Below are positions 41,259-43,340 of a DNA stretch of 64,000 nucleotides, piece after piece. A program made the translations under genes and the position numbers. The first letter of the stretch is position 1; each line of letters begins with the position of its first letter. The notes beneath the pieces are model-generated. The model did not search any database, was not told where the DNA came from, and saw nothing but the letters and a program-made list of their open reading frames with translations. Origin of the DNA: Methanohalophilus halophilus (GTDB taxonomy: Archaea > Halobacteriota > Methanosarcinia > Methanosarcinales > Methanosarcinaceae); the NCBI RefSeq assembly GCF_001889405.1, contig NZ_CP017921.1:262057-326056 (forward strand). Reading direction: 5' to 3'.

Positions 41259-42053
41259 TCACCAGGCGTGATAGTAACCATCTTTAGAGAAAACCTGTAC
41301 CTGTATTCCAAATATATCAGACAGGTTTTCTGCAGTTAATATTTCATCCGTTGGCCCGTCCCTGTATACACTTCCCTCACTTAGCAGGACCACCCTGTCA
41401 ATTTCAGGGACCAGGTCTTCGAGATTATGTGTCACAAGAATTATGTTTTTACCTTTGGAAGCAATCGTGCGCATGGACTGCCTGAAAATATGCTGTGCCC
41501 TGAGATCTAAACTGTTTGTAGGTTCATCCAGTATCAGTACATCGGGGTCATGCACAAGTGCCCTGGCAACCAATAGTCTGCGGGCCTGTCCAGTTGACAT
41601 TTCGTTTATGGGGCGTGAGGCAAGATTTTCAATGCCAAGAAAGCCGAGCACCTCATGAGCCCGCCTCTTCATATCCCCGGTAATAGAATGGTTGCGATAG
41701 AGGCCTATGCTGCTAAAAAACCCGGACACTACCACCTCGATACCCGGAATATTACGCATATATTCATCCTGCAAATCACCACTGATGATACCCATTTTGT
41801 TGCGCAACCCGAAAATGTCCCGGCGCTCCTTTCCAAATAAGCGGACAATTGTCTTTTCAGAGTGAAGGGGACGTAGGTCTCCTGTGACCGTTTTGATAAA
41901 AGAGGATTTGCCCGCTCCATTTGGACCGATAATCGCAACATTTTCTCCATTTTTAATATTAAGAGAGAAATTGTCCAGTAATATGTTACCCTTTTTGCAA
42001 ACTGTGACATTTTCCATTTCAATAATCATAGGCTTCGCATTTTTCGTTTCCAT
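41259..42053 (-). CDS. ABC transporter ATP-binding protein, stand-alone
   Basis: 264 residues. Walker A GPNGAGKSSFIKTV near residue 41, Q-loop region following, signature MSTGQARRLLVARAL near 149, Walker B DPDVLILDEPTNSLD near 168, H-loop VTHNLEDL. The order FGLRNKMGIISGDLQDEYMR matches the molybdate/photorepair-type single ATPases (ModF/YjjK-like) and not a cobalamin importer. No permease or binding protein adjoins. Could power a distant transporter. Convergent with the flavoprotein gene (one base between the stops). Confidence 0.85.
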   Translation of the reverse strand: METKNAKPMIIEMENVTVCKKGNILLDNFSLNIKNGENVAIIGPNGAGKSSFIKTVTGDLRPLHSEKTIVRLFGKERRDIFGLRNKMGIISGDLQDEYMRNIPGIEVVVSGFFSSIGLYRNHSITGDMKRRAHEVLGFLGIENLASRPINEMSTGQARRLLVARALVHDPDVLILDEPTNSLDLRAQHIFRQSMRTIASKGKNIILVTHNLEDLVPEIDRVVLLSEGSVYRDGPTDEILTAENLSDIFGIQVQVFSKDGYYHAW

Positions 42054-42102
42054 GTGTTACACAACAACAGTTAAATAATTTATAAATTTTTTTAGACATA
42101 AC

Positions 42103-42150: not shown

Positions 42151-42174
42151 ATACTAACATATGGAGGAAATGAC

Positions 42175-42936
42175 ATGGGGATTGAAGACAGTAATTTCTC
42201 AACGCATCAACAAGGAATGATTCCTAGTGGAATCGAGGGGCTTGATATCTATCTGGAAGGTGGGATAACAGAAGGAACTACAGTACTTCTGATGGCAGAA
42301 CCCGGGGCAGGATCATCCATTTTTGTCCAGCAATTTGCATACGGTGGCATCGAAAACAATGAGTAGGTCCTGTTTTTTGACAGTGAACAAAGGCCGGAAA
42401 TGATAAATTCAAATATGGCCCGTTTCGGGATGAATATATATCCACATATCGGCAAAAATATCAATATTATTGATGTCCACAAATATCGTGAGCAAGGACG
42501 CGAAGATGAACTTTATAATAAATACCTGAAGGATACGGACATAAACCCTATACTTGAAGAAATGTTGTCGGAAATCACCGAAAACGAGTCTGATAAAAAA
42601 TGTCGTACCATTGTGTATTCACTGTCATATTTTATACGCCTGGTAGGCCTGGATCCTGTAGTTGAAGCTATTGAATCGCTATCAAAGAAAGGGGACATAA
42701 ATAAATCGGTCAATTTCCTCCACATTACAAAAGGAATGCACGGGACAACTGTGGAAAACACATTAAAACAGGTTTGCGATACTGTAATTGAACTTCAGGT
42801 GGAAGAGAGAAGTTTCAATGTACAAAGAACAATATTTATCAGAAAACTCTACGGCTCCATTGCACCGGATAATTTCCTGCCCTTTTATATAGGAAAAGAA
42901 GGAATAAAACTGGATACGATAAAACGTATTCTTTAA
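42175..42936 (+). CDS. RecA/KaiC-superfamily ATPase-like protein with in-frame TAG (probable pyrrolysine)
   Basis: 253 codons from ATG 42175 (GGAGGAA five bases before it) to TAA 42936, interrupted at codon 64 by TAG (42364-42366). The sequence on either side is one protein: residues 1-63 carry GIEGLDIYLEGGITEGTTVLL, and VLFFDSEQRPEMINSNMARF follows directly after the TAG. In Methanosarcinaceae, UAG can be read as pyrrolysine, so the full-length protein is the likely product. The P loop is degenerate (EPGAGSS, no lysine), so ATPase activity is doubtful. Convergent with the downstream regulator (4-base overlap). A 63-residue truncated product or recent pseudogene cannot be excluded. Confidence 0.75.
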
Positions 42937-43340
42937 CGGTTCCTGATACCTTTTTGTCTGTCAATTTCTGAAGCAATGGCTTCCAATTCATCAAACATGC
43001 GTTCGGAGTCTTTACGCATTTCATGTACTGCTGCCTTCAGGCTTCCCCCCCTTAGATAAAGCAGGCGTTTTTCACGATAAACAAGTCCTGCCTTTACCAA
43101 ATTCCTTACATGGTGATTAACACGGGAGAGATTTATGCCAAGAGCCTCAGCTATCATTTCCGATGAAACACGCTCATTCTCGGCAATGTTATCAAGCAAA
43201 GTCATTACGACCTGGTTTGCCGTGTTTTCTATATCCCTTCCCGAAGACAGGCCAAAGCTATCACATAACCAGTGTAAATCCTTTTCAGGGTCCTTTTCCC
43301 TTGGTTTTTCCAGATTTACCAATATAATCTGCCGACTCAT
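42933..43340 (-). CDS. Winged-helix regulator divergent from groESL
   Basis: 135 residues. The helix-turn-helix is at about 60-110: NQVVMTLLDNIAENERVSSE, MIAEALGINLSRVNHHVRNLVKAG and the wing YREKRLLYLRG. A C-terminal amphipathic helix (DSERMFDELEAIASEIDRQ) should dimerise. It is transcribed away from groES with a 167-base shared region. No ribosome site precedes ATG 43340, and a TATA box lies about 26-33 bases upstream, so the mRNA may be leaderless. Position suggests it controls the chaperonin genes and itself through the palindrome at 43381-43409. Confidence 0.8.
   Translation of the reverse strand: MSRQIILVNLEKPREKDPEKDLHWLCDSFGLSSGRDIENTANQVVMTLLDNIAENERVSSEMIAEALGINLSRVNHHVRNLVKAGLVYREKRLLYLRGGSLKAAVHEMRKDSERMFDELEAIASEIDRQKGIRNR

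Follow-up and report, generated by a model that had tools for sequence, protein, structure and literature searches.

The window analysed here is a stretch of 64,000 nucleotides (C1:262057-326056) from the genome of Methanohalophilus halophilus, a complete single contig of 2,022,959 bases. In it, ATG 42175 opens a frame of 253 codons that ends in TAA at 42934-42936 and whose sole in-frame stop is TAG at 42364-42366 (codon 64), as described in an earlier note made from the sequence alone; no other frame among the roughly 60 genes called in the window ends at a TAG. The features of the locus are listed below in window positions, where RSK denotes Methanohalophilus sp. RSK, the source of the closest orthologue (NZ_RDSK01000013.1; G036:C13).

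41259 to 42053, minus strand: ABC transporter ATPase gene, divergent neighbour; order kept in RSK
42079 to 42088, plus strand: TTTATAAATT, a possible archaeal TATA box, placed by inspection
42163 to 42167, plus strand: GGAGG ribosome-binding site, with the ATG 7 nt downstream; kept in RSK
42175 to 42936, plus strand: KaiC-like (PF06745) gene with in-frame TAG; read-through product MGIEDSN...KRIL, collinear with the RSK orthologue
42198 to 42906, plus strand: stretch deleted in G031, G033 (M. mahii), G034 and G035, which retain a scar
42295 to 42324, plus strand: degenerate Walker A motif AEPGAGSSIF, residues 41-50, with Ser in place of the P-loop Lys
42364 to 42366, plus strand: in-frame TAG (codon 64), which we propose to encode pyrrolysine; the RSK orthologue has TAT (Tyr)
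42616 to 42618, plus strand: codon 148, where Tyr replaces the Asp of Walker B, as it does in the RSK orthologue; the other 28 of 29 aligned relatives have D
42933 to 43340, minus strand: winged-helix (MarR-like) regulator gene, convergent, overlapping the 3' end of the KaiC-like gene by 4 bases

The GGAGG bears out the strong ribosome site that had been claimed. A scan for promoter and terminator consensus sequences at the gene gave chance-level results, with a promoter type that is the wrong one for archaea.

Both sides of the TAG do read as one conserved protein, as the earlier note had it. Coding scores are positive before (0.26) and after (0.16) the TAG, and the whole read-through product matches Pfam KaiC (PF06745) over residues 16-246 at 4.5e-27 (95.3 bits, against a curated cut-off of 26.6); the half that follows the TAG, taken alone, still matches (6.4e-8). 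Orthologues ending near residue 63, which the note regarded as evidence against read-through, are not what we observed: the RSK orthologue, the only close one among the genomes searched, is uninterrupted, runs full length, and is collinear across 253 residues with 94% amino-acid identity. The protein resembles the single-domain proteins of the KaiC/RecA superfamily, among them PDB 2DR3 (PH0284), to which its sequence matches, but it has lost the Lys of Walker A and the Asp of Walker B, the P-loop Lys being absent from every aligned relative as well. With both residues lost, ATPase activity is improbable. The use of pyrrolysine by a RecA-like ATPase, which had been thought of interest, therefore finds no support, all the more as the site is variable and holds Tyr in RSK. 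A TAA reported with another KaiC match was discarded, being the ordinary end of that gene.

Codon 64 of the RSK orthologue is TAT (Tyr), one base off TAG, and the in-frame TAG is private to the M. halophilus genome. We infer that the change went from TAT to TAG, there being no third close orthologue with which to polarise it. The K, Q, W or O for which the earlier note would have orthologues compared at this position did not appear: across 29 aligned Methanosarcinaceae sequences (RSK plus relatives of about 40% identity, all single full-length proteins) residue 64 is E in 16, D in seven, N in two, S in two, and Y (RSK) and H in one each. By entropy the column ranks 190 of 233, towards the variable end, and its neighbours are a conserved E/D and an invariant V. 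Residue 64 seems to lie at the surface, where substitutions are tolerated, directly before a predicted core beta strand. An AlphaFold model built from two sequences was set aside (mean pLDDT 41.6, residue 64 not placeable).

The sequence past the TAG evolves under purifying selection comparable to that on its neighbours. Between M. halophilus and RSK, dN/dS is 0.09 for the whole gene and 0.073 after the TAG, and the values for three neighbouring genes are 0.044, 0.072 and 0.101. With a dS of 0.25 after the TAG, a fully unconstrained M. halophilus branch should have gathered about 55 non-synonymous changes there, versus the 8 seen on both branches combined, and a non-functional spell longer than about a quarter of that branch is unlikely. 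The downstream frameshifts considered in the earlier note do not occur, and the gene shows no second lesion, so that the marks of a pseudogene (multiple lesions, relaxed selection) are not seen in it. A very young pseudogene state is possible.

The absence of pylT and pylS, also raised there as an objection, does not apply to this genome: tRNA-Pyl(CUA), at C1:420819-420890, is followed by pylS (identified by its family model, 8e-111) and by pylB, pylC and pylD (recognised from sequence and order), in a cluster at C1:420.8-425 kb. No further CUA tRNA was called among 45 Rfam tRNA hits, a set in which tRNA-Pyl itself is unlisted and which could miss another tRNA as atypical as that one; the idea that a different suppressor tRNA reads UAG was dropped, none being called among the tRNAs found. 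ARAGORN left uncalled two Rfam tRNA hits (L218, L227) and one of the two at L220, which probably contain introns. The genome also encodes one full-length aRF1, and pylB (L040:8202-9263, plus strand) terminates in TAG directly 5' of the pylC ATG. Because of these two observations, UAG can probably also terminate in M. halophilus, and it is possible that read-through at the end of pylB serves as autoregulation of pyrrolysine synthesis. The apparent pylB of a Methanosarcina genome (L140:17064-18116, minus strand) is likewise TAG-terminated. In the 100 nt from the TAG of the KaiC-like gene we found no structured recoding element (fold z = -0.47). A PYLIS-like downstream RNA structure has been reported only for mtmB and mtbB, not for mttB, and PYLIS structures are unnecessary for UAG decoding (PMC3639795).

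How TAG is used elsewhere was assessed in 883 kb (44% of the M. halophilus genome), with ORFs of at least 100 aa. TAG ends 8 of 708 ORFs there (1.1%), as compared with 14 of 238 (5.9%) in the Methanosarcina control, where most are real ends with short extensions. Four of the eight are internal (mtbB, mttB, a Trm5-like gene and a histidine kinase), one runs off the end of its stretch, and three are apparent true ends, namely pylB, a 175-residue ORF in which TAG is directly followed by TGA, and a 140-residue ORF; possible true ends in TAG are at most about 4 of 708, i.e. at most about 0.5% of genes in this sample. A scan for stops flanked by coding sequence showed that mtmB and mfnA also have an internal TAG, joining mtbB, mttB, the Trm5-like gene and the histidine kinase in the sampled stretches; mttB has exactly one TAG in all 8 of 8 genomes of the genus. 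No clear mid-gene TAA or TGA was seen in these stretches. Since nearly all TAA and TGA cases of the scan are, by inspection, boundaries of adjacent genes, the interruptions in M. halophilus are TAG-specific, as expected for a tolerated sense codon and unlike those of ordinary pseudogenes.

Several of these genes, and some in sister species, have further peculiarities. The Trm5-like tRNA methyltransferase gene (L069:14771-15592, minus strand) has Ser (TCG/TCA) at the place of its in-frame TAG in five sister species, and RSK has a TAG in another Trm5 homologue (G036:C15:115718-116392). Because the genome holds two other Trm5 homologues, we did not take this gene as proof that UAG is decoded in an essential gene. 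In the PAS histidine kinase (L086:1960-3582, plus strand) the in-frame TAG stands right before the DTGIGI motif of the ATPase domain. The 175-residue ORF (L075:16689-17216, plus strand) is TOPRIM-like by eye, and in its M. mahii homologue (L121:3831-4283, minus strand) the TAG likewise directly precedes another stop. An MFS transporter gene of M. mahii (L115:1150-2300, minus strand) contains a TAG in frame, as codon 290 of the stretch that was translated.

The conserved UAG in mfnA, which encodes the tyrosine/aspartate decarboxylase of methanofuran synthesis, is a by-product of this survey that is more interesting than the KaiC-like case itself.

L071:13438-14574, plus strand: mfnA (TIGR03812), with the TAG of codon 41 at L071:13558-13560

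This TAG, in the context CTYPHEIA-TAG-HAHC/YAHC, is found in six species (M. halophilus, RSK, M. mahii, G031, G034 and G035), and codon 41 is Ala in two more distant species of the genus (loci compared: L176-L183). A UAG is thus conserved in frame in a cofactor gene that does not encode a methyltransferase. Downstream of the TAG, dN/dS is 0.09-0.14 among the five intact copies; that of G035 has an extra frame break just downstream of the TAG, which may be an assembly error. The mfnA gene is probably essential, and the M. halophilus genome has no further copy that passes the family cut-off. As six species have kept the TAG, UAG alone would not appear to inactivate a gene in Methanohalophilus. 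An in-frame UAG older than the split of these species, in a gene whose remainder is still under purifying selection, would be very hard to explain if it were untranslated. Of the independent evidence for UAG decoding, mfnA is the strongest.

The claim that read-through of UAG makes a 253-residue KaiC-like protein is very probably right, judging from the orthologue, the pyl genes, the pattern of selection and mfnA. We regard a full-length protein with pyrrolysine at residue 64 as the best reading, and hold it with fair confidence. Since TAG is scarce as a stop, occurs inside genes and is conserved under selection in mfnA, UAG is very probably a working sense codon in M. halophilus. The substitution at codon 64 is most likely neutral and recent, because the site is variable, there is no mRNA signal, the Walker A Lys is absent and the gene has been deleted in four species. 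Under this scheme, a T-to-G change would have turned the Tyr codon TAT, kept in RSK, into TAG in a cell that makes pyrrolysine and tRNA-Pyl(CUA) for growth on methylamines and has almost abandoned TAG as a terminator. At UAG, tRNA-Pyl would compete with the release factor, and ribosomes would place pyrrolysine at codon 64 and go on to complete 253 residues without any dedicated mRNA signal. A change from TAT to TAG would be cheap where UAG hardly stops translation, so that in-frame UAGs could drift in. We infer both that the UAG of this particular mRNA would be decoded and that the residue would be Pyl.

The main rival, to which we give a small but real chance, is a recent nonsense mutation: UAG would mostly terminate, and a dispensable gene would be starting to be lost. 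Besides the TAG being private to one species, the history of the gene agrees with such a scenario. The flanking genes persist in G031, M. mahii (G033), G034 and G035, but all that is left of the KaiC-like gene is a scar, about 7 codons from its start joined to about 10 from its end; the deletion junction is essentially identical in the four species (window 42197/42907 in M. mahii). This is most simply read as deletion of a gene that was ancestral to the group; because the four sister species share this internal deletion, the gene is, on this comparison, dispensable. Dispensability, however, suits a tolerated substitution as well as incipient loss. Citrate synthase offers a similar case for loss: of the gene that carries an amber codon in M. 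mahii (PMC3017947), several species, M. halophilus among them, have nothing but remnants. Against a nonsense mutation stand the lack of a second lesion and the low downstream dN/dS, although a young mutation would look alike, the fact that interruptions in the genome are TAG and not TAA or TGA, and the in-frame UAG maintained in mfnA in six species.

Two observations may be added on these genes. In G031 and G034 (L043, L046, L051, L052) the ABC gene is separated from the KaiC scar by about 2 kb of extra sequence that ends in an apparent histidine kinase; this sequence is absent from M. halophilus (G000), G033, G035 and RSK. Citrate synthase (G000:C1:203334-203480; L145, L168-L173) is complete in two species, carries the amber codon in M. 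mahii, persists as C-terminal remnants in four species including M. halophilus, and was not found in one.

A sequencing or assembly error, with TAT as the true codon 64 as in RSK, would need a difference of only one base in a single assembly. We consider it very improbable, given that the genome is a complete single contig and that the in-frame TAGs of mttB and mfnA recur independently in several assemblies, so that the phenomenon is no artefact (an argument that leaves base 42366 itself unaffected). Two separate proteins, one of the 63 N-terminal residues and one of 178 residues restarting at ATG 42400, where a frame of 178 codons does open, are the least credible alternative, since the P-loop would be severed from the core strand that follows it in the RecA-like fold, ATG 42400 lacks a good ribosome site (by inspection), and every aligned relative is a single full-length protein.

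Returning to UAG as a sense codon, we think it rather likely that in Methanohalophilus it is effectively a genome-wide Pyl codon, drifting through ordinary genes and fixed in at least one cofactor gene (mfnA codon 41, six species), and that methanofuran synthesis is thus pyrrolysine-dependent. If true, methanofuran synthesis as well as methylamine use would rest on pyrrolysine, and annotation pipelines that take TAG as a stop would truncate or drop real Methanohalophilus proteins, mfnA included. The KaiC-like gene would then be a clean case of a stop becoming an ordinary codon: two close species and one base, TAT versus TAG, in a conserved gene.

With the methylamine methyltransferases of Methanosarcinaceae (mtmB, mtbB and mttB) the KaiC-like gene shares an in-frame UAG, a conserved downstream part, and tRNA-Pyl, PylS and PylBCD encoded in the genome. 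In those enzymes, however, Pyl is catalytic and invariant, whereas codon 64 of the KaiC-like gene is variable, is TAG in one species only, and is Tyr in the nearest orthologue. A UAG shared among orthologues is typical of the methyltransferases, but one that arose neutrally need not be shared. Kivenson and colleagues reportedly described in 2025 archaea that read all TAG codons as pyrrolysine, the 'Pyl code', in which, as in the present case, TAG is said to be nearly absent as a terminator and present inside ordinary genes. Unlike what is said of that code, M. halophilus has a TAG-terminated pylB and encodes a full aRF1. A neutral route to in-frame UAG has been proposed for cluster 7 of T. potens and clusters 19 and 23 of M. 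acetivorans (PMC3639795), and pyrrolysine has been suggested for the amber codon of M. mahii citrate synthase (PMC3017947), in which we likewise found one TAG. The KaiC-like gene resembles these cases in being an intact non-methyltransferase gene with a single change in a Pyl-decoding host, with no mRNA structure needed. Beyond them, it is a different gene, and it comes with an orthologue that differs by one base, a test of selection and a genus-wide background of stop-codon use.
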